Below are positions 4,829 through 61,181 of a DNA stretch of 64,000 nt, piece by piece. Positions within the stretch are counted from its first letter, which is position 1. Each line of letters starts with the position of its first letter. The notes under the pieces were generated by a model, which saw nothing but the letters and a program-made list of their open reading frames with translations, was not told the origin of the DNA and ran no database searches. The DNA comes from Methanobrevibacter sp. (GTDB taxonomy: Archaea > Methanobacteriota > Methanobacteria > Methanobacteriales > Methanobacteriaceae): positions 164,767 to 228,766 of the forward strand of contig NZ_JAUNXR010000001.1 in NCBI RefSeq assembly GCF_030539665.1. The letters are read 5' to 3'. The position numbers and the translations under genes are program-made.

Positions 4829-5992
4829 TTAGTTTTCAATGGCATCCTTCACTTTATCGAAGAATCCCTTTTTAGGTTTTTTGATTTCATCGCCACTTAC
4901 TTCGGCGAATTCTTCGAGAAGCTTTCTCTGTTTGCTATTTATTTTGCTAGGAATTACAACAACAACCTTGACATATAGATTTCCACGGTTTCCTCCTCTT
5001 AAAGCAGGCATACCTTGGCCTCTAAGTTTAAATACGGTTTCACTTTGTGTTCCTGCTGGAATTTCAAATTCCAATTCCTTGCCTTCGATTGTTGGTATTG
5101 TTATGTCGTCACCAAGAGTTGCTTGTGGAAAACTGATGTGTTTAGTGTAATGCAGGTCTTTGCCATCTCTAGTAAAGTTTTTATCCTGTTTTATATGGAT
5201 GCTAACAATCAAATCTCCGCTTAATCCAGGAGCATCTCCACAGTTACCTTCTCCACCTACTCTCAGGCGATCTCCTTCGCTTACACCTGCAGGAATATCA
5301 ATGGTTATTGTTTTTGTTTCACGAGTTTTTCCTTTTCCTCTACAATCAGGACATGGGTCTGTAATTATTTTTCCAGTTCCTCCACACTCTCTACATGGTC
5401 TGAAGTTAATCATCTGTCCTAAAATAGAGTTTCTAACTTCTTTAACCTGTCCTGTACCATCACATGCCTTACAAACTTCAGGTTCTACTCCAGGTCTTGA
5501 TCTAGAACCGTTACATGTAGGACAGAGTTGTTCCTGTCTGATTTTGATTTCCTTTTCACAGCCTTCAAAAGCTTCCTTAAGGGTTATCTGTGTTTCGGTA
5601 TATATGTCTGAACCTTTTTCAGGACCTGCTGGCTGGCGTGAAAATCCACCGCGACGTCCTCCGCCTCCAAAACCAAACATTTCAAATATATTTCCTATAT
5701 CAAAACCCATTCCTTGGAATAGGTCATCAAAGTTTACGTTTTGATAGAAATCTTCAACATTGAATCCATCCATGCCTGCGTGACCAAATTGATCATATCT
5801 TTGACGTTTGTCTGAATCTGATAAGACAGCATAAGCTTCACTTATTTCTTTGAATTTTTCAGATGCATCTTCTTCTTCACTAACATCAGGATGGTATTTC
5901 ATAGCTAGTTTACGATATGCTTTCTTAATTTCTTTTTCATCTGCCCCTTTGTCAACTCCAAGGACATCATAATAATCTCGCTTTTCTGCCAT
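4829..5992 (-). CDS. dnaJ: Chaperone DnaJ (Hsp40)
   Basis: This 387-aa protein has the complete type I DnaJ layout. The J domain carries HPD at residues 34-36. A Gly/Phe-rich linker follows ([13 protein letters not shown]), then four zinc-binding CxxCxGxG units ([32 protein letters not shown]) and the C-terminal substrate-binding domain. It stimulates the ATPase of DnaK and delivers unfolded substrates in the cytoplasm. It is the third gene of a grpE-dnaK-dnaJ cluster. A strong stem with a T-tract separates it from dnaK, so it may be partly uncoupled. The start is supported by AAGGTGGC just upstream. In archaea this system is found mainly in mesophiles and is thought to have been acquired from bacteria. 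Confidence 0.97.
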
Positions 5993-6032
5993 TTAGCCAC
6001 CTTATAAAAATAGTATTAAAATAAAAAAATAA

Positions 6033-6122
6033 AAAATTGTTTTAAACATTTTATTCCTGTTAGTTGTTTTTGTTGATTCTGATTATTTAACCTATGGGAA
6101 TAAAACGTTTCTTAAACAATTT
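6033..6122 (-). terminator. Long stem-loop between dnaK and dnaJ
   Basis: Bases 6033-6057 and 6097-6122 are near-perfect inverted repeats of about 25 bp with one mismatch and a small insertion, around a loop of about 39 bases. On the minus strand the stem starts four bases after the dnaK stop and is followed by a T-rich run (complement of 6010-6032). It looks like a terminator or RNA-stabilising hairpin that sets the dnaK/dnaJ ratio. Confidence 0.65.
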
Positions 6123-6126
6123 TCAC

Positions 6127-8007
6127 TTATTCGTCTTTTACTTTGTAGTCTGCATCGATTGTATCGTCATCGTTGTCATTTGGTGCTTGTTCAGCTCCAG
6201 CATTAGGGTCTTGACCTGCTGCTTGTTGTTGAGCTGCTTCTGCTTGTTGGTAGATTTTTGCACCAATTTCTTGTACAGCTTTAGTTAAAGCTTCTGTTTT
6301 TTCTTTGATTTGAGCAATGTCATCTCCAGCTACAACTTCTCTTAAATCTTTTACAAGACCTTCAATGTTAGTTCTGTCATCATCACTAACTTGGTCTTTC
6401 AATTCGTCTAATGTTTTTTCAGCAGTATAGATCATTGAATCTGCATCGTTTCTAACTTGAATTTCTTCTTGTTTAGCTTTGTCAGCTTCAGCGTTCATTT
6501 CTGCTTCTTTTACTTTTTGTTCAATTTCTTCATCGGATAATTTGGTTGAAGAAGTGATTGTGATTGCTTGTTCTTTTCCAGTTCCTTTATCTTTAGCAGA
6601 TACATTAATAATACCGTTTGCATCAATATCGAAGGTTACTTCAATTTGAGGAACTCCTCTTGGTGCTGGTGGGATACCTACTAATTGGAATCTTCCAAGA
6701 CTAGTGTTGTCTGCAGCCATTGGCCTTTCACCTTGTAACACATTGATGTCTACGGAAGGTTGGTTGTCTGCTGCAGTTGAGAAGATTTGACTTTTCTTAG
6801 TTGGAATTGTGGTGTTTCTTTCAATTAATGTGGTTGATACTCCACCAAGGGTTTCAATACCTAAGGATAATGGAGTTACATCTAAAAGAACTAAGTCTTT
6901 GATTTCTCCTGCTAATACTCCTCCTTGGATGGATGCACCCATAGATACACATTCCATTGGGTCAATTCCTCTTTCGATTGGTTTTCCTATGAAGTTTTCA
7001 ACGTATTTTTGTACGATTGGCATTCTTGTAGGTCCACCAACGAGAATGATTTTGTCAATGTCATTTTTGCTCATTTTAGCATCATCTAATGCTTGTTGCA
7101 TTGGACTTCCGGATTTTTTAACGATGTCATCTACTAATTCTTCTAATTTAGCTCTGGTAAGTGTGATGATTAAGTTTTTAGGGGATCCGTCAGTTCCCAT
7201 TGCGATAAATGGTAAGTTTACTTCAGTGGTTAGCACTGTGGACAATTCGATTTTTGCTTTTTCTGCTGCTTCTCTTAATCTTTGTACAGCTTGATCGTTA
7301 TCCATAAGGTTAATGCCATTTTCTTTTTCAAATTCGGAAGCTAAATAGTTGAGAATTGCATTATCCATATCGGTTCCACCAAGTTGGGTATCTCCGCTGG
7401 TAGCTTTTACTTCAAATACTCCTCCACCGAATTCCATAATGGTTACGTCTAATGTTCCTCCACCTAAATCGTATACCATGATGTTTAGGTCATCGTCATC
7501 TTGTTTGTCAATACCATATGCAAGACTTGCTGCTGTTGGTTCGTTTACGAGTCTTACTACATCTAATCCTGCAATGGTTCCTGCATCTTTGGTTGCAGTT
7601 CTTTGGTTATCGTCAAAGTATGCTGGTACGGTAATAACAGCCTTTTCAATTGGTTCTCCTAAAAATGCTTCTGCATCTTTTTTAATTTTTTGTAAGATGA
7701 ATGCGGAAATTTCTTGTGGGGAATATTCTTTTCCATTTGCTTTTACTTTTTGGTTTGTTCCCATTAATCTTTTGATTGCACTAATTGTGTTTTCAGGGTT
7801 GGTAACTGCTTGTCTTCTTGCAGGTTCTCCTACGAGCATTTGTCCGTCGTCAGTAAATGCCACATAACTTGGGAATGCTTTACCATATTGGCTTGCTCCT
7901 TCTGCTGATGGGATTACGGTAGGTTTTCCTCCTACGAGTACGGATGCTGCTGAGTTACTTGTTCCTAAATCAATACCTATAATTTTTTCTTTTTTTGAAT
8001 CTGCCAT
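6127..8007 (-). CDS. dnaK: Chaperone DnaK (Hsp70)
   Basis: This 626-aa protein has the full Hsp70 arrangement: an N-terminal ATPase domain with [14 protein letters not shown] at the phosphate loop and [13 protein letters not shown] near residue 180, a beta-sandwich peptide-binding domain, and an alpha-helical lid with a Gln/Ala-rich tail ending in acidic residues. It binds exposed hydrophobic segments of unfolded proteins in an ATP-driven cycle with DnaJ and GrpE. It lies 12 bp after grpE, in the same operon. The length fits the family. Expression is probably controlled by the divergent HSR1-like regulator through the palindromes at 8673-8826. Confidence 0.98.
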
Positions 8008-44584: not shown

Positions 44585-47500
44585 TTATGCGGTTGCTTTT
44601 GTAACTTTCACGTTTCCTGCTGCTTTTGCTCCGCTATTGTCACTTACAGTGATTGTATAGTCTCCTTGAGCTAAGTTGATAGGTAAGCTAGCAATACCAT
44701 TTGCATCTGTAACTTTGGTGTAGGTTACGGTTTTAATGGTTTTTCCAGTTATTGTGAAACTTACTTTTGCGTTAGCCATCGGTTTACCTTGTTGGTCTAC
44801 AAGTTTAGCTGTGAAACTTGCAGGCTTGTTTACTGCTTTGGTTAGGTCTTCAGTAGTTAATGTTGGTAAAACGTTTATTGTGTTTGTGGTTGACATTTCA
44901 CCGTAATTTGCGGTGATTGTGTATGCTCCAGGTGCTAAACCGATATTTAAGGTAGCTACTCCATCATTGTTGGTTACAATGTTGTACTTGAGATTTTTGA
45001 AGGATGCTCCGTTTAATGTTACGGTTATTGTTTTTCCTGCAGCTGGTTTTCCATTTTCATCTAAAAGTTTCACGTTGTACTGAGTTCCGTTTTTGTAGTA
45101 TTTTACTACATTTTCAGCAATTAAAGCACTTTCTTTAGGTAAAACGTTTACATTTGTTGTAATTGATTCTGATCCGTATGTAGCGGTGATTGCGTATTGG
45201 CCTACTGCTAAGTTTATTGGCAAGCTTGCTACACCGTTTGCATCAGTGATCCTATCGTATTTAAGATTTTTGAACGATTTACCGTTAAGGGTTAATGTAA
45301 CTTTTGTGTTGGCAACTGGGCTGCCGCTAGCATCAGTCAATGTTACTTCATATTTGGTTCCGTCTTTTACAAACATGTCAATGTCTTCTGCTTCTAAAGA
45401 GTATGATTGTGGTAAAACAGTAATTGTGTTTTCAATCTCTTCGGAATTGTCAGTGAACGCATTGATTGTGTATTGTCCAGGTGCTAAGTTAATCGGTAAT
45501 GTTGCAACACCTTCGCTGTTTGTTACAATTGTGTATTGTAAGTTTTTGAAGGAAGGTCCATTAAGTACAACAGTAACTTTCTTGTTAGCTACCGGAACTT
45601 TGTTGTTTAAAACAGTCACTGTATATTGGGTTCCGTTTTTGTAGTATTTTACAAGATCTTGGGATACCAATATGTCTTTAATAGGTGTGTTGTTTTCAAT
45701 TTCACCAGTTATGTTGTTTATAGCGTCATTACCGGTTAATTTTTCTGCGACCAAATAATTGTCTTTGACTGTTGAGACACTATTTTCTGTTTTTAGGACA
45801 TTAACAGCATATTCTCCTGTAGTGGTTACATTGTTTCCGGTTATTGTTGCTTTGGTTGCATTGTTATAGATTAATATACCTTGGTTTGTTGCACCGAACA
45901 TGTCATAGGTTGGTAAACTGGTTTTTCCAGTACCTTCTGCAGTGACATTGTTATCTTTAATTTCAATTATTGGTGTGTTGGTGGTTATACCCATGGTATA
46001 TTCACCGGTTACAGCAACATTGTTGTTGGTTGCATTTTCTTCAGTTCCTAACAATTGTAATCCGTATGCGGTTTGTCCGTCAACGGTTACATTGTTGTTG
46101 TCGTAGGTTGCTTCCACGGTTGTGGATCCCCATGCTGAAGAGATAATTCCATAAGCAGATTGATTGCCTTTTACATTTACTTCATTGTTTGCAACAGTTC
46201 CACTGAATCCAGTATTTACCTGTATACCGTCAGCATAGTTCTTGTCATTGTTAACAGTGATTTTGTTGGAATCGATGTTTACATCGTCACCGGATACGGA
46301 GACACCATATTCGTATGGAGCTTTGTCTCCTTCTACTGTTATGGTGTTGTTCTTGATGGTTACATCGTTACCAGTACTGGATAATCCGTATATTGAATCA
46401 TAGCCTGATCCGGCAGTTGGAGTTACTGTTATGGTATTGTTTTCAACTAATGTATTTGATGAAGCCAATTTCATACCTGCAGTCAAGTTACCCATTGGTT
46501 TTGCAGGAATGTTTGCTATTATGGTGTTTCCTGTAATGGTTGCTGAGGTAGGATAGTTGGTAACTAAAATTCCAGCATTTGTTGGTTTGATCAAATCGCC
46601 GGTAGTTGGTTCTCCCAATCCTTCACCGTCAACTTTGATTTGGTTGTCCTTGATAGTAACAGGACCATTGGTACTACTTGCAATTCCGATTGTGTAATTT
46701 CCTTTTGCAGTAATATTGTTTTCAATTACTGTTTCATTGTTTCCAATCACTTCAATAGCATATAGGGTGCTGGAAGCAATGTCAACATTGTTTTCCTTAA
46801 TGGTTGCATTCACATCACCATAGGTGAAAATTCCGTATGCAACATCCTTTGATTTGATTGTGACATTGTTTTCACTTACTGTGCCTGCATATGGGGAATT
46901 GATTTGAATTCCTCCTGCATATTTGCCAGGTGTGGTAACATTTATATTGTTTTGTGTCACATTGCTGTTTTTACCGCTGATGGTTAGTCCGTAGATATAA
47001 CTGTTTCCTTCTGCAGTAATATTGTTGTTGGCAAAACTGGCATTGTCAGCATTTAAGATGAAGCCGTATATGGTATCGTAAGCGCCGGAGCTTTCTCCAG
47101 TCTTTACTTTTAAATCATTGTTTTCCACATTTATGTCAGTTCCGGACATGTAAACTCCTTGACTAAAAATGGTTGCTGTCCAAGGAGGTAATGGCTCGTA
47201 GCTAACAGGAACTGAGTCCAATGTTGCAGAAATATTATTTCCGGTCATGCTGATATTTTTTCCATTTTCAATAAAGATAATCGCATTTACAGGACCATTT
47301 TCCTCAGTTGCTCCGATGTAGTTGATGGTATTGTTTGCAACTGTCATGTTCTCAACGGATGATGCATAAATTCCATATCCGTCTTTGTCAGCGGTTGCAT
47401 TGAAATTGATGGTGTTGTTAACTAAAGTTACGTTGTTTTTGGAGATAATTTCAATTGCACTTTCCAAATCATTGATGTTGAATGTAAAGTTTTTAACTAA

Positions 47501-49060
47501 AACATTATCAGAATCAATCACCAATCCAATATTGTTCAAGACAGTCTCTTTTCCATAAATTGTTATTGGCTTGTTGATGGTAACGGTTTCTACACCCAAA
47601 TTACTGAATATGCCGTTGAAAGTCAAGTTGTTGTAGCCATATTCTTCCTTCAAGGTACCGTCTTGGTTAAAGTAAGAGAAGAAGGTGTCATTGGTTAGGT
47701 AATTGTTAAAACCAACAGCAAAGTTTGCTACCTTGGTGGCAGGTGTGTATTTGTCGTCACCTGAATAGTCAACATGAGCAGCATAGTTTCCATAATCCAA
47801 AGGATCCGCATTAATGGTTGCAGCTCCGTTGGAGACTTTTCCCTTGTAGGTTTTTCCATTGATGGTGACGGTAACGTTTCCAGTAGCATCCGCTGGAAGG
47901 GTGATAACGACAGGGTTAGGTTCTCCGATTTTGCTATCTCCTACGGTCACGTTCAATTTAGGTTTGTAGGTGATTGAAACGACACCATTATCATCACTAT
48001 CCAAACCAGGTATTTCTGCGTTTACAAAAGTGTTATAAGTACAGTCAATTATAGTTGGGTTAACAATGTTGATTCTTTCGTCTCCTCTTCTCTGGATTAA
48101 CATCATGTAAATAATATCATCTGCACTTACAATATTTTCAAATGTACAGTCAATTATATTGAGAGTAGCTAAACAATCGGAAAATATTACTGCTTTAATT
48201 GAATCTCCATAATAAGCTGGATTACCTGACCATACTTCAGGTTGATCAGTACCATTCTCAAAATAAAAATGACAATTTATAAATGAATAACTTGCATTTT
48301 GGAAATCATAAGGCCCTATATTTGACACCCCATTTCCAAAACTTTTATATTCCACATTAAATTGGAAAGCAATATCGCTATTTAGATTAAAAAAAACATT
48401 AATAAATGTACAATTTATGAATTTCACATTAGAATTAAGGGGCAACTCTAATGGATATTTTCCATTTTCCTTAATTGTCATGTTTATAAAAGTATAATTT
48501 CCAAATTTTCCAGTTTGACCATCCGGATTTATCTCCATTTCTTTAAAAATGACTCCATCACGACTTTCACCTATTAAAATAAGGTTTTCACCCTCATGAT
48601 AATAAATTGAGTTATAAGTACCATTTTTCTGATAAATGACAGTGGGAGTATCCTCTGAATCTTCATTGGATGTAACCAAAGCTGCACTTGCCATTAAAAG
48701 TGGAATATTTCCTGCAGTGTTTTGTTGAGGAATATTCTGTACACTGTTTATGAATACATTGTTTTCAAACAAGTAGGTTCCATTTTGGATTTCTACGGTA
48801 TTGGATGAACCTGTCAAATTTATAACATAATTAACATCAGTTTTTTTACAATAGTCCTTTAAATCAGCATAATTATTTGCATTTACATTTACGCTTGAAA
48901 CCCTCGCTGGAGAATCATCAAGCATTAGATCAACATCAGTGTCTGCAGTCATGTTGTCAGCGGAAATGTCTGCTGCACTAACTGCTCCGATACTCAGAAT
49001 CAGGAGTATCATTAAAAATGAAATTTTTGTAATTTTATTAATTTCTAACACCTTTGTCAT
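44585..49060 (-). CDS. Very large secreted adhesin-like protein (1491 aa)
   Basis: The N-terminus is a signal peptide: KITKISFLMILLILSIGAVS followed by AADISAD, so cleavage near residue 30 is likely. Residues 80-350 form a first beta-helix; an Ig-like domain (about 355-440, PKLNVTVGDSKIGEPNPVVI) follows, then a second, longer beta-helix (445-1120) built of superrepeats and finally four Ig-like repeats (1125-1491). The end, VKVTKATA, and most of the Ig repeats are almost the same as in the adhesin at 554-4561, so the two are paralogs in inverted orientation 40 kb apart. No membrane anchor or sorting motif is visible. Adhesion to other microbes or host surfaces is inferred. Confidence 0.9.
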   Translation of the reverse strand: MTKVLEINKITKISFLMILLILSIGAVSAADISADNMTADTDVDLMLDDSPARVSSVNVNANNYADLKDYCKKTDVNYVINLTGSSNTVEIQNGTYLFENNVFINSVQNIPQQNTAGNIPLLMASAALVTSNEDSEDTPTVIYQKNGTYNSIYYHEGENLILIGESRDGVIFKEMEINPDGQTGKFGNYTFINMTIKENGKYPLELPLNSNVKFINCTFINVFFNLNSDIAFQFNVEYKSFGNGVSNIGPYDFQNASYSFINCHFYFENGTDQPEVWSGNPAYYGDSIKAVIFSDCLATLNIIDCTFENIVSADDIIYMMLIQRRGDERINIVNPTIIDCTYNTFVNAEIPGLDSDDNGVVSITYKPKLNVTVGDSKIGEPNPVVITLPADATGNVTVTINGKTYKGKVSNGAATINADPLDYGNYAAHVDYSGDDKYTPATKVANFAVGFNNYLTNDTFFSYFNQDGTLKEEYGYNNLTFNGIFSNLGVETVTINKPITIYGKETVLNNIGLVIDSDNVLVKNFTFNINDLESAIEIISKNNVTLVNNTINFNATADKDGYGIYASSVENMTVANNTINYIGATEENGPVNAIIFIENGKNISMTGNNISATLDSVPVSYEPLPPWTATIFSQGVYMSGTDINVENNDLKVKTGESSGAYDTIYGFILNADNASFANNNITAEGNSYIYGLTISGKNSNVTQNNINVTTPGKYAGGIQINSPYAGTVSENNVTIKSKDVAYGIFTYGDVNATIKENNVDIASSTLYAIEVIGNNETVIENNITAKGNYTIGIASSTNGPVTIKDNQIKVDGEGLGEPTTGDLIKPTNAGILVTNYPTSATITGNTIIANIPAKPMGNLTAGMKLASSNTLVENNTITVTPTAGSGYDSIYGLSSTGNDVTIKNNTITVEGDKAPYEYGVSVSGDDVNIDSNKITVNNDKNYADGIQVNTGFSGTVANNEVNVKGNQSAYGIISSAWGSTTVEATYDNNNVTVDGQTAYGLQLLGTEENATNNNVAVTGEYTMGITTNTPIIEIKDNNVTAEGTGKTSLPTYDMFGATNQGILIYNNATKATITGNNVTTTGEYAVNVLKTENSVSTVKDNYLVAEKLTGNDAINNITGEIENNTPIKDILVSQDLVKYYKNGTQYTVTVLNNKVPVANKKVTVVLNGPSFKNLQYTIVTNSEGVATLPINLAPGQYTINAFTDNSEEIENTITVLPQSYSLEAEDIDMFVKDGTKYEVTLTDASGSPVANTKVTLTLNGKSFKNLKYDRITDANGVASLPINLAVGQYAITATYGSESITTNVNVLPKESALIAENVVKYYKNGTQYNVKLLDENGKPAAGKTITVTLNGASFKNLKYNIVTNNDGVATLNIGLAPGAYTITANYGEMSTTNTINVLPTLTTEDLTKAVNKPASFTAKLVDQQGKPMANAKVSFTITGKTIKTVTYTKVTDANGIASLPINLAQGDYTITVSDNSGAKAAGNVKVTKATA

Positions 49061-49354
49061 TTCTAATAAAGTATTTTTAATTAATATTCAAATTTACTTT
49101 ATTGATTGTTTATTTTGTATTCATAATATATATAATATTGTTTTTTTACAATTTCTTTATTTTTTTAATTTTCAATTATTAATTCATTATATTTTAAAAA
49201 AAATTTTAATTAAACCCCAATTCCTTTCTAAAACAATTTTAAAAACACTTTATCAAAAGTAATTTTAGCAAACATTTTATATTATAATAAGGCAAATATA
49301 AGAATTAGTCAAGTAATTTTTAATTATTTGGCTATCAAATTAGGAAAAATTTGT
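49061..49354. promoter_or_regulatory. Divergent promoter region between two adhesins
   Basis: This stretch is nearly pure A/T with several TATA-like runs: TATATATAATATTG around 49127-49140 suits the minus-strand gene and TTTTATATTATAATAAG around 49274-49290 the plus-strand gene. No operator-type palindrome or gene is apparent. Confidence 0.5.
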
Positions 49355-51511
49355 ATGGTTTTGAAAAATTATTTCAATAAAAAGCTACTGCTGGGTATTG
49401 TTTTCATTTTTCTAATCTGTATCAATTGCAGTTTTGCAAATCCTACAGATGACTTGAACAATGTTTCAATGCTTAGCAGCAATGTTCAGAATTTTTCTAA
49501 TAACCATGTCATAACCAATGAGAATTTCGCAGACTACTTTGCAAATAACGAATTGAAATCTGAATATGAAAACCAGAGTATTTCATTTTCAGGCAATTTC
49601 ACTGATTTGGGCACTTTGAAAATAGCTAATTCAAATGTCAATATCAATTGTAATGATTCATATTTCATTAATACTGGATTTCATTTGAAAGGGGAAAACA
49701 TAACATTGGCCAACGGAATCTTTTTGGCAAATGTTTCTTTTCCAAACAGTGATGATTCATTGATTCTAATAGAAAACAATGGAATCAAGGTTTCCAACAA
49801 CAAGATTAGCTACATCACACCGAACTCTACTGCTCATGGAATCTATTTGAAGGGTAGCAAAACAGATTCTTTCGAAAATGTTAGCATAAGCAACAACGAT
49901 ATCTATTTCGAATCTCACAATCTTGAAAACGGATACAATTATGCTCTGGCAATCACTTATGCTGACGATGTAATGGTTTATGGCAATAAAATCAATACTT
50001 CACTTCCCTTAAGGCCGGTAAGTTGGAATCAGGGAATATATGGTGGAATAGGAATGGAATTCGTTGCAACAATAGCATTCGGACAATGTGAACATCTAAC
50101 AATGTCCGGCAACTACATTTACACATCCGGAAATGGAAGGTTCGGTCAATACCCTACATTGGACGCTTGTCTGCTTTACAAGTGTGATTACTCCCTTATA
50201 GAAAACAACACAATAATAGAGGTTGACTACGACACTCCAATTGATGTGGACAATTATCTTTATGCTATTGATATGTTCCTCTGTGACGATACAACAGTTG
50301 TTTACAACAACGTCCATGTCAGAACTACTGGGGGACAAATGTCACATGGAACTGCATATCCTATGCAGGTCACAGGACCATCTAACAATCTCAAGCTTGC
50401 TTTCAACAACATCAGTTCAGTAAGCAACGGTCCAAACATCGGAATATATTCCTCCAACTTCTATGGGGAAACTCATATTCATCTTGTAAGCAACCACATC
50501 AACATCACTGGCCGTGCTGGAGGGGACTCCTGGGCATTGGTTGCAGGAATTGAAGTTCAGGATACCAATGATTTGATACTGAACAATACCATAGAGGTTC
50601 ACAACACCTTAAACAGCAGTTTAGGAAACCTTTATGGAATCAGCTATTCACAACCGACAAACTATGATCATGCATACAATATTCAATATAATACTGTAAT
50701 CTCCGAAGGGCAATATGCAGTAACCTTGAAAGGTCAGCCTAATGGTATGGTTGTGGATACAATCGTTGCAAACAATCAGATAGTGTCCAGCAAAGGTGAA
50801 GGAAACAAGGCAGTTATGGTTGGAGGATCCCTCCGTAACGTAACAGTCAAGAACAACACAGGACTCAAAGTGGATAAGAAGGTCATGTCTGAAGAATTAT
50901 ATCCAGACTGGTTAAAAGATTATCTTGAAGATTTAAACAATAGGATTGAAGCTAACAAGGAATCAGGTAGTGGCACTCCCTCAACTAATAATACGAACAC
51001 CGAAGTTAATAACAACACTTCTGTAGAGTTGCCAAACAATTCCACTAGTGGAAATTCATCAATTGCTGGAAATCAGACAGGTAATGGAACCGGAAACGTA
51101 ACCGGTAACAACACAATATCTGGAAATGCCACCACAGACATTGAAAACAGTAACTCTTCAGAGAATGTTGATTCTAACTTAAATGGGGACAGCAGCAATA
51201 ATTTCGAAAATAATGGTAATATTGTTAACGACATTGTTGACAATGCAAACATCAGCAATTCCACAGTAACAAATAGTACCTTGATATTGAGAAATAATGT
51301 TACATCTTCAATTAGTCCGGGATTGACAAGCCAATTGTTATCTTCAGAAAGTCCTGCAGAGTCTGCTAGTGCTTCAAAAGCTCATGAAGTTTCAAAAACA
51401 TCCAAGAAAGTTAAATCAGATGATTTAAAACCTTACTTCATAGTAGGTATTGTTGTTTTATTGGCATTGCTATTAGTTGGTTATAAGCGATATGGTTCAA
51501 AAGAAGATTAA
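49355..51511 (+). CDS. Membrane-anchored adhesin-like protein (718 aa)
   Basis: The start is placed at ATG 49355 (MVLKNYFNKK), because it directly precedes the signal sequence LLLGIVFIFLICINCSFA; a TTG at 49328 would add nine residues. A right-handed beta-helix covers about residues 80-540, a low-complexity Asn/Ser/Gly/Thr-rich linker about 540-660, and the end is a transmembrane helix (YFIVGIVVLLALLLVGY) followed by a short basic tail KRYGSKED. It is therefore anchored in the cell membrane, unlike the other adhesins here. It is divergent from the 1491-aa adhesin. Confidence 0.88.
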   Translation: MVLKNYFNKKLLLGIVFIFLICINCSFANPTDDLNNVSMLSSNVQNFSNNHVITNENFADYFANNELKSEYENQSISFSGNFTDLGTLKIANSNVNINCNDSYFINTGFHLKGENITLANGIFLANVSFPNSDDSLILIENNGIKVSNNKISYITPNSTAHGIYLKGSKTDSFENVSISNNDIYFESHNLENGYNYALAITYADDVMVYGNKINTSLPLRPVSWNQGIYGGIGMEFVATIAFGQCEHLTMSGNYIYTSGNGRFGQYPTLDACLLYKCDYSLIENNTIIEVDYDTPIDVDNYLYAIDMFLCDDTTVVYNNVHVRTTGGQMSHGTAYPMQVTGPSNNLKLAFNNISSVSNGPNIGIYSSNFYGETHIHLVSNHINITGRAGGDSWALVAGIEVQDTNDLILNNTIEVHNTLNSSLGNLYGISYSQPTNYDHAYNIQYNTVISEGQYAVTLKGQPNGMVVDTIVANNQIVSSKGEGNKAVMVGGSLRNVTVKNNTGLKVDKKVMSEELYPDWLKDYLEDLNNRIEANKESGSGTPSTNNTNTEVNNNTSVELPNNSTSGNSSIAGNQTGNGTGNVTGNNTISGNATTDIENSNSSENVDSNLNGDSSNNFENNGNIVNDIVDNANISNSTVTNSTLILRNNVTSSISPGLTSQLLSSESPAESASASKAHEVSKTSKKVKSDDLKPYFIVGIVVLLALLLVGYKRYGSKED

Positions 51512-52077: not shown

Positions 52078-52097
52078 AAAGTCCTAGGCAGGACTTT
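52078..52097 (-). terminator. Hairpin at the end of the nucleotidyltransferase gene
   Basis: AAAGTCC (52078-52084) is complementary to GGACTTT (52091-52097). The stem includes the stop codon and the last codons of the minus-strand gene and is followed on that strand by T-rich sequence. Confidence 0.6.
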
Positions 52098-53148
52098 CCT
52101 TAAGTTTAATGTATTCGTCTATGGACTCTCTAGTGGTTCCGACAACAAGTCTGTAGCTGATGTCAGTTCCGTTTTTAATTACCTTTTCAACCTTTCCGCG
52201 AGCTACAACTTCCTCTTCGTCTTCCACTTCTCCGGCATAGGTGTGGGTAAACGATACCAATTCTGTAATTGGAGCCTCTACTCCGTCAATTATCTTCAGG
52301 TCTTCAATGGTATAAAGTGATGGGTTGTCAAAGGCTCCCAATGCACTTACAATCTTGCATTCGACGCTTGCCACTCCTATAGGTTCATAAACTGTATCTC
52401 CCCATTCACCTTCAATCTCATCATAGTCCTTGGTGGCCAATATGTCAAATAATGTTCCATCGATGGTTCCACGGTTTCCTTTTCTGTTTTCATACCATCT
52501 GAATTCCTCTTTGGATAGGCTATCATCCTTTATTCTTTTATCGTAAAGGAAATCCCAGTAGTCATCAGTAATTCCCATTACCTTTATTGATTTTCCGATT
52601 TCATCAATATAAACGTCCTTTCCTTTGTTTTCCCTAAATGCTTTCATGGCTTTTCTATGATTTTCAAGGCCGAAAATTACAAAATCAATGTCTGAAACAT
52701 CACTTTTATGAAGTCCTGGAAGGATTGAGCCTGAAATTCCAAGATGGTCATAATCAATGCCTGCCACATAATGGAAAAAGTCAGCAACATCCAGAAGCTT
52801 AGCAACGATTTCGGGATTTTTGCTTTCCCCATTTTCCCTTATGTCCCTAAGACGATTCTGTGGCCTTATGATTTGCTCTACCTTTTCAAGTGGAACCCCC
52901 ATCATGTTTTTGACCTTGGTTACATCACAATCATAAAGGTAATCAGGATAATTTTCAGTCAAATATTCATAAGCTTCATCAGAACTTACTTTTCTGTATT
53001 TTGTGCCGTTCTTTTCACGATCGCCATTTTCATCGGGAACATATCTTAAAAATGAAATATAACGACCCTCAGGATGAACATAATTTGTTGAAGCAAAGAA
53101 TAATCCGTCAGTGGTATAAATAAAATCTCTTGTTCTTACCTTTTCCAT
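52084..53148 (-). CDS. Predicted nucleotidyltransferase (354 aa)
   Basis: The middle has a polymerase-beta-like nucleotidyltransferase core: GISGSILPGLHKSDVSDIDF, with the G-S turn and a D-x-D pair for metal ions (near residues 145-165). The N-terminal 90 residues are a separate domain (DGLFFASTNYVHPEGRYISF) and the C-terminus an extra beta-rich segment. It resembles archaeal proteins annotated as DNA polymerase beta-like predicted nucleotidyltransferases; the substrate is unknown. It stands alone between an orphan AbrB gene and a 760-bp noncoding stretch. The start follows GGGAGTG (53155-53161 on the minus strand). Confidence 0.82.
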   Translation of the reverse strand: MEKVRTRDFIYTTDGLFFASTNYVHPEGRYISFLRYVPDENGDREKNGTKYRKVSSDEAYEYLTENYPDYLYDCDVTKVKNMMGVPLEKVEQIIRPQNRLRDIRENGESKNPEIVAKLLDVADFFHYVAGIDYDHLGISGSILPGLHKSDVSDIDFVIFGLENHRKAMKAFRENKGKDVYIDEIGKSIKVMGITDDYWDFLYDKRIKDDSLSKEEFRWYENRKGNRGTIDGTLFDILATKDYDEIEGEWGDTVYEPIGVASVECKIVSALGAFDNPSLYTIEDLKIIDGVEAPITELVSFTHTYAGEVEDEEEVVARGKVEKVIKNGTDISYRLVVGTTRESIDEYIKLKESPA

Positions 53149-53281
53149 AAAAACACTCCCTAATATATAAATTGTCGATTTTTATATAAAAATCATTTTC
53201 TTTTGAGCATTCATGTCATTATTGATTATTTTAGTAAAGGCATTAAACAAAAAGTGGATTTCATAAAAAATAAATTAAATA

Positions 53282-53331
53282 AAGAATATCGCAATATCTA
53301 GAAAATCCAGACAGTCCCATTTGATATTCTT
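53282..53331. repeat. 9-bp inverted repeat
   Basis: AAGAATATC (53282-53290) is complementary to GATATTCTT (53323-53331), with a 32-base loop. Confidence 0.55.
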
Positions 53332-53342
53332 CATTACTCATT

Positions 53343-53395
53343 AACAAAGGATTGATATAAAATATGTGAATACATATTCTGTAATCCGATTTGTT
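53343..53395. repeat. Two-level hairpin
   Basis: AACAAAGGATT (53343-53353) pairs with AATCC (53383-53387), a two-base bulge, and TTTGTT (53390-53395). Inside lies a second perfect hairpin, AATATGT-gaat-ACATATT (53361-53378). Confidence 0.7.
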
Positions 53396-53648
53396 GAAAA
53401 AACTATAAATAGTTTCTCTTGCAAATGAAAGCAATATTATTGATTTAAACTATTGTTCGTTATTTTCAATATTCATGTCTTTAAACTATTCAATTTTTAA
53501 ATAAAACAATTATTATTAATTAAATCAATATTTCAGATTAATACAATATTCAAAATGTGGAAGAATCAGATATAGAAAAGACTTCCTTAAAACAGATTAA
53601 TATGGAAATTTTAAGTTAAGATAAAAATAAATTCTTCATTATTGATTC

Positions 53649-53704
53649 ATTAATGCTAGTTGCATATAGCAAATTGTCATATGCAACTTCCTTGTAGCAT
53701 TAAT
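53649..53704. repeat. 19-bp bipartite inverted repeat
   Basis: ATTAATGCTA (53649-53658) pairs with TAGCATTAAT (53695-53704), and directly inside GTTGCATAT (53659-53667) pairs with ATATGCAAC (53679-53687). The only interruption is a seven-base bulge TTCCTTG on the 3' side; the loop has 11 bases. Confidence 0.8.
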
Positions 53705-53717
53705 TTATTTTCATTAG

Positions 53718-53780
53718 AATTAATATTGTAGTGTCTAATAAAGACTTCGAATATAGTTTCTATATTCTTGAATATTAATT
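53718..53780. repeat. 10-bp plus 8-bp nested inverted repeats
   Basis: AATTAATATT (53718-53727) pairs with AATATTAATT (53771-53780); inside is a tight hairpin GAATATAG-TTT-CTATATTC (53749-53767). Confidence 0.65.
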
Positions 53781-53907
53781 AAGAGTTTTATTTGTTATAA
53801 ATATGTGCTATCCTGTCAATTTCACGCATGAATATATTTTTTCACTATCTCTCTTCAATGAACATATTTAATAAAAATAATGCCCATATCTTTAATTAGG
53901 AGATTTT

Positions 53908-60952: not shown

Positions 60953-61020
60953 TTTTTCCTTATTTTTTTAACAGTATTGAAGTTTTATTTCAAAAATAGA
61001 TAAATTATTTGCTCTTTTAT

Positions 61021-61099
61021 AAGTTCAATCCTCTAGGTAGTGTCCTTTTGGAGTTTTTTAAAAGAGTGAATGTCCCTAGAGGAGGTCGTTTTTGAACTT
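61021..61099. ncRNA. Candidate structured RNA or bidirectional terminator
   Basis: AAGTTCA (61021-61027) pairs with TGAACTT (61093-61099); inside, TCCTCTAGG (61029-61037) pairs exactly with CCTAGAGGA (61075-61083). The 37-base interior contains two smaller alternatives (TCC-tttt-GGA and CTTTT...AAAAG). The GC content of this arm is far higher than in the surrounding gap. It lies between the convergent coaB and flpA genes. The minus strand has a TATA-like TTTATATAAAG directly beside the outer arm (61094-61104). No family is recognised. Confidence 0.5.
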
Positions 61100-61181
61100 T
61101 ATATAAATTGCATTAACATATTAATTATTGTTTTTTATATTATAAATAGCTAATTATAATATATATTTTAACAATTTTTTA

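Follow-up and report, generated by a model that had tools for sequence, protein, structure and literature searches.

In methanogens, intergenic trans-acting small RNAs (sRNAs) are represented by sRNA154 and sRNA162 of Methanosarcina mazei, of which sRNA154 is conserved throughout Methanosarcina and is transcribed when nitrogen is limiting (PMC5867862). The same review of archaeal sRNAs makes no mention of the genus Methanobrevibacter (PMC5867862). The locus described here is a gene-free stretch of about 760 bp (53149-53907) between two divergent genes in the genome of a Methanobrevibacter sp. (G000), within the window, the whole 64-kb stretch of DNA that was analysed. Our preferred reading, held tentatively and at somewhat less than even probability, is that this is a fast-turnover intergenic zone with two promoter-plus-hairpin units, probably minus-strand sRNA genes or relics of them.

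The gene to the left has no Pfam or NCBIfam match, and its reading frame suggests a nucleotidyltransferase-like protein. The DUF366-queD-queE operon to the right belongs to the queuosine/archaeosine pathway. The promoter and leader of the left gene are separate from the hairpins, and the TATA box of the operon is located downstream of them. As noted earlier from the letters alone, no plausible protein frame spans the stretch; the sole listed open reading frame (ORF) wholly within it has 57 aa and a TTG start. Beside the region, at 44585-49060 and 49328-51511, are two large ORFs of adhesin-like or parallel beta-helix type, the former with Ig-like repeats at its C-terminus (both by eye). The features of the stretch and its flanks are listed below, with RNA fold z scores for the plus and the minus strand in that order.

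52084-53148, minus strand: left gene, a 354-aa ORF.
53149-53206, minus strand: left-gene promoter and leader, including a TATA box of its own.
53282-53331, minus strand: W1 bipartite hairpin, with a 9-bp outer stem, a one-sided loop with AUGGG and an inner stem (z -1.7 and -4.5).
53343-53395, no strand assigned: hairpin with an 11-bp outer arm, including a 2-nt bulge, around a 7-9 bp hairpin, ATATGTGAATACATAT (z -2.6 and -3.5).
53649-53704, minus strand: W2 bipartite hairpin, 10 + 9 bp with a one-sided 7-nt bulge (z -4.8 and -4.4).
53718-53780, no strand assigned: AT-rich hairpin, 10 bp around an 8-bp hairpin (z -1.9 and -3.0, tested over 53715-53785).
53854-53907, plus strand: promoter and leader of DUF366-queD-queE, with its own TATA box.
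To the right, plus strand: DUF366-queD-queE operon (Pfam DUF366, PTPS and Radical_SAM).

Sequence inspection and folding showed that the three inverted repeats named in the earlier note, at 53343-53395, 53649-53704 and 53718-53780, are all present. In addition, AAGAATATC and GATATTCTT make up a fourth pair at 53282-53331, and a further, imperfect inverted pair extends across 53788-53880. Eight perfect inverted repeats of at least 8 bp were observed, compared with 3.9 in dinucleotide shuffles (p 0.04), and total stem length gave p 0.03; the inverted-repeat count is raised only marginally over shuffled sequence (p about 0.03-0.05). When folding was compared with shuffles, as the earlier note had proposed, three single hairpins beat their controls. 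The stretch taken whole (20 shuffles per strand) beat chance on the minus strand (z -3.4) and did not do so on the plus strand (z -1.1). When 15 intergenic stretches of the window were scanned at 66 nt, W1, W2 and 53343-53395 ranked at or near the top, with best z scores of -4.1 to -5.3. The presence of unusually stable RNA-like hairpins in the stretch is confirmed. A reading by which such stems are AT-rich chance, expected at 22% GC and without function, would accommodate the marginal repeat count, the lack of relatives for 53788-53880 and for 53718-53780 (none anywhere searched), and inter-hairpin pieces (53149-53280, 53396-53640 and 53785-53907) that fold like shuffled sequence. We consider it quite unlikely, as it leaves unexplained the z scores of -4.5 to -5.3 of W1 and W2, their paralogues and their stem-biased conservation.

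The first of the two units, W1, has one copy elsewhere in the genome, and its parts are as follows.

53276-53440, minus strand: unit W1 (family A), with promoter motif, TATA box, two hairpins and T-run.
53418-53435, minus strand: promoter-upstream motif ATTGCTTTCATTTGCAAG, recurrent in Methanobrevibacter genomes.
53404-53411, minus strand: TATA-like box TATTTATA, identical in the copy L018.
53264-53281, minus strand: T-rich run after the W1 hairpin, a possible archaeal terminator.
G000:C2:119161-119321: L018, the W1 copy, upstream (5') of dprA, 83% identical over 77 nt.

Common to the minus strand of W1 and to L018 is ATTGCTTTCATTTG-AAG followed after 5-7 nt by TATTTATA; the bipartite hairpin also aligns between the two, and L018 likewise carries CTTTTCAAAACCTGTTTTTT after its hairpin. 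Of the 18 outer-stem sites one has changed, from A to G, turning A-U into G-U on the minus strand. The inner sequence is largely replaced, yet on that strand the inner part of each locus still folds. Taken alone, the inner part of W1 yields -6.8 kcal/mol on the minus strand and 0 on the plus strand, and its inner stem forms on the minus strand only. Of the hairpin at 53343-53395, L018 keeps AATATGTATTCACAT and not the outer arm, so that the inner part alone is conserved. A covariance model of the W1 family (R3), searched in 40 genomes, placed only W1 and L018 above 31.1 bits, with no further family member in the 39 relatives searched.

Against sRNA units stands the observation that L018 also reads as a 40-codon frame, and W1 and L018 might be relics of a short leaderless protein gene with an Rpn-type promoter, the hairpin being a by-product and W2 unrelated decayed DNA. 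In both loci an ATG follows the TATA box at a distance of 28 nt (24 nt for the leaderless starts of Rpn-like genes), the 40 codons open in L018 read MYSHFTLHYAGRISDGSASGLFPMLRYSFQNLFFQYLKIY, and W1 keeps RIS.G..LRYS..NLFF in frame, with several synonymous-looking changes. The frame is, however, open in L018 only, with three in-frame stops in W1; it has no Pfam match and no clear 40-aa homologue in 67 genomes beyond L018 (W1 at E 0.04, others at E of at least 0.1). An intact protein behind W1 and L018 was sought in the 67 genomes and in Pfam, and none was found. Such a gene relic would also leave unexplained both the persistence of the inner stem despite sequence divergence and the existence of a second family, and we judge it unlikely.

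This second family centers on W2. Because W1 and W2 could not be aligned together by MAFFT, separate covariance models were used for the two. Many blastn matches around 53457-53555 were left out as AT-rich stretches.

53647-53740, minus strand: unit W2 (family B), from covariance models R1 and R2 and alignment.
G000:C5:1715-1823, minus strand: L029, a W2 copy.
G000:C7:704-809, plus strand: L103, a W2 copy.

R1, a model built from W2 and L029, independently recovers L103 (E 6e-6) and had no credible match when 66 further Methanobrevibacter species were searched, and the extended model R2 returned the same three loci in 18 genomes, with no further copy in the 17 relatives searched. L029 and L103 share 78% identity over 114 nt, including a TATA-like box upstream of the hairpin. 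Between W2 and L029, 5 of 36 stem sites differ versus 12 of 23 other sites (Fisher p 0.003), and four of the five stem changes make up two fully compensatory pairs (simulated p 0.0025, or 0.013 if only transitions are allowed). Formal covariation across the three sequences was reached by 39 of 500 shuffles, is not clearly above them and is suggestive only. A pseudoknot pairing GGAU with AUCC in L029 and L103 was rejected, as it is absent in W2 and sterically doubtful. The box ATTATAA of both copies is ATTAGAC in W2, where the promoter looks degraded, and the outer stem is lost in L103; these changes would place the duplicated units at different stages of decay. W1 and W2 are each a member of a tiny dispersed family within one genome.

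The contigs of the W2 copies hold other duplicated material. In that of L029, three small ORFs of 178, 73 and about 98-190 aa form a block that is duplicated in tandem at 5013-7245 (L200), within a small-ORF-rich region and adjoining an ImmA-like ORF and a DUF4411 gene pair. At one end of the L103 contig, the C-terminal part of an Rpn-like gene is left as tandem remnants (DDIIECTGLSESRLSELKKT; L201, positions 1-520).

In the nearest relative compared, Methanobrevibacter sp. UBA586 (DAII01000108.1; L032), the first 58 bp (91%) and the last 55 bp (95%) of the stretch, which hold the two divergent promoters, are kept. The middle is mostly different: the hairpins are absent, and what remains is a vestige of the W1 promoter motif, 89% identical over 37 nt, and one short stretch of AT-rich sequence. 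In other loci (L034, L035, L106 and L131) the gap between the same two genes varies and is often only about 100-160 bp. As the middle is mostly different in UBA586 and the gaps are often short elsewhere, the hairpins are not a conserved leader of either gene, and as both genes keep their own promoters in UBA586, W1 and W2 are not needed as leaders. A cis-regulatory, riboswitch-like leader of DUF366-queD-queE or of the left gene, which the structured DNA and its position upstream of a queuosine/archaeosine-pathway operon might call to mind, is highly improbable: the hairpins are not kept ahead of these genes in relatives, the promoters of both genes sit between the hairpins and the start codon, and there is no match to preQ or any other riboswitch in Rfam. 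The missing conservation and the separate promoters led us to reject a riboswitch or leader of the que operon. The lack of conservation in relatives that the earlier note would have counted against structured RNAs applies to the position and does not extend to the paralogues inside the genome.

The expansion of this zone relative to relatives with about 100-160 bp is one of several points consistent with mobile or duplicating hairpins acting at the DNA level, MITE-like or transposase-bound, and inserted after the split from other species. The copies are dispersed in the genome, L103 adjoins Rpn-like remnants, L029 shares its contig with a DUF4411 gene and numerous small ORFs, and the folds are strong as single-stranded DNA too. 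By inspection, however, the ends of homology carry no common terminal repeats or target-site duplications, and the copies are few and only 72-83% alike. No match was found in phages or plasmids, and an origin from either was rejected. In viral contigs, the outer-stem pattern gave 61 hits, treated as chance without individual scoring, and the inner pattern gave 5, none above 20.6 bits with R1, by which the pattern hits are at chance level; the promoter motif is absent from the viral contigs searched. In addition, G-U pairing greatly improves the W1 inner stem, a point in favor of RNA over a DNA-level element. Mobile hairpins of this kind are, in our view, a doubtful explanation.

The promoter motif itself extends beyond W1. 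The motif-TATA arrangement recurs in several Methanobrevibacter genomes, with the motif 4-7 nt before the TATA box, and AATTGCTTTCATTTGAAAG was located at L006, L009, L080, L087, L209, L230, L240 and L246 in addition to 53404-53435 of the window. The genes behind it are of accessory type: Rpn-like, AAA-ATPase-like and an ORF reading DNREDNRICNAVQHY. It points towards the gene at L009 (an AAA-ATPase-like ORF) and at L230 and L240 (Rpn-like ORFs), the Rpn-like ORFs behind it having 314 and 269 codons; the L230 ORF matches TIGR01784 at E 2e-5, below the family cut-off. Because the motif points towards genes at other loci, in W1 it most likely reads into the hairpins. Its recurrence suggests a shared regulator.

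Under the sRNA reading, W1 and W2 would each encode a small non-coding RNA or be a recent relic of a gene that did so, and they would have decayed to different degrees. Transcription of W1 would proceed from the TATA box at 53404-53411, with the strand-specific predictions of a start near 53383 on the minus strand and an end in the T-run near 53270, producing an RNA of about 105-115 nt. W2 would be a related design with a degraded-looking promoter; W1 is probably transcribable, and transcription of W2 is doubtful. Any role of W1 would be exerted in trans, as a structured small RNA for which no target is proposed, and a trans-acting role of W1 and W2 is possible by analogy to methanogen sRNAs such as sRNA154 (PMC5867862).

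Several properties expected of archaeal sRNAs can be compared with these units. Stable structure under constraint is seen in the folds of W1 and W2 and in their stem-biased differences, stems being better kept than loops in comparison with the copies; because copies are few, this evidence of constraint comes from one sequence pair per family. As for promoter and terminator, W1 and L018 have motif, TATA box and T-run, and the box is degraded in W2. Conservation among related species, which is usual for archaeal sRNAs and not strictly required, was not found, R1 detecting its family in G000 only among 67 genomes of the genus. A further point against sRNA units is that the W1 and W2 families number only two and three copies, all in one genome. 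At the gathering threshold, Rfam 15 recognizes only tRNAs in the window and does not match the W1 or W2 hairpins, for which permissive searches gave chance-level results. The earlier note had offered undescribed structured RNAs or a decayed element. The former finds backing in two hairpins that belong to small families with structure-preserving differences and are absent from Rfam, and in the W1 promoter motif; the latter, in the replaced middle of UBA586, the outer stem missing from L103 and the altered TATA-like box of W2. The hairpin series is not one RNA and contains no more than two minus-strand units.

A separate observation in the window concerns the following feature.

61005-61140, minus strand: candidate structured RNA between a coaBC-like ORF and fibrillarin/Nop5.

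This candidate, which is absent from Rfam, sits 3' of fibrillarin and Nop5 (Pfam PF01269 and PF01798), with a conserved leader, UGCUAAUGCAAAU, a T-run at its 3' side, and conserved AUUCACUCU and UCACU(U/C)CA in its minus-strand loop. With a query from another species, 65 of 67 genomes of the genus gave a match at E of 0.01 or less; most matches are strong and at a place fitting the same gene neighborhood, and a few genomes have short, weak matches that are perhaps chance. Pairing in its stems reaches 99% across 12 sequences, and each of the two helices shows a paired change. It is a stronger RNA candidate than W1 and W2. UCACU(U/C)CA resembles the complement of GGAGUGA-like ribosome-binding sites, on which the RNA could act in the manner of loop 2 of sRNA154. 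Its bipartite outline (7-bp outer stem, one-sided loop of 8-9 nt, inner stem of 8-9 bp) is like that of W1 and W2, the minus-strand design of all three having an outer stem of 7-10 bp, an inner stem of 8-10 bp, a loop of 7-9 nt confined to the 5' side and hardly any 3' spacer. That the three form one undescribed class of Methanobrevibacter sRNAs, one member genus-wide and the others duplicated and fast-diverging, is a speculative proposal to which we give little credence.

To our knowledge, little is known about the small RNAs of gut methanogens of the genus Methanobrevibacter. Even as relics, W1 and W2 illustrate the origin, spread and decay of structured promoter-plus-hairpin cassettes in intergenic DNA, and they caution that a hairpin-rich gap beside que genes should not be taken for a riboswitch. 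With preQ1 and other riboswitches of queuosine genes in Rfam, the stretch has only the que-gene neighborhood in common, and it differs in having no Rfam match, no positional conservation and a separate downstream promoter. W1 and W2 resemble MITEs and the hairpin ends of IS200/IS605-type elements in being short, non-coding, multi-copy and strong as single-stranded DNA, but no terminal repeats, target duplications or transposase-borne copy were seen. Rpn family (TIGR01784) genes of the source genome have the same upstream motif and TATA spacing as W1 and L018, behind which, in contrast, there is no Rpn coding sequence. Finally, unlike sRNA154, W1 and W2 occur in a single species among the genomes searched and are candidate RNAs from sequence alone; compared by description, they share with sRNA154 and sRNA162 the form of a stand-alone, short structured RNA between genes with stable stem-loops.
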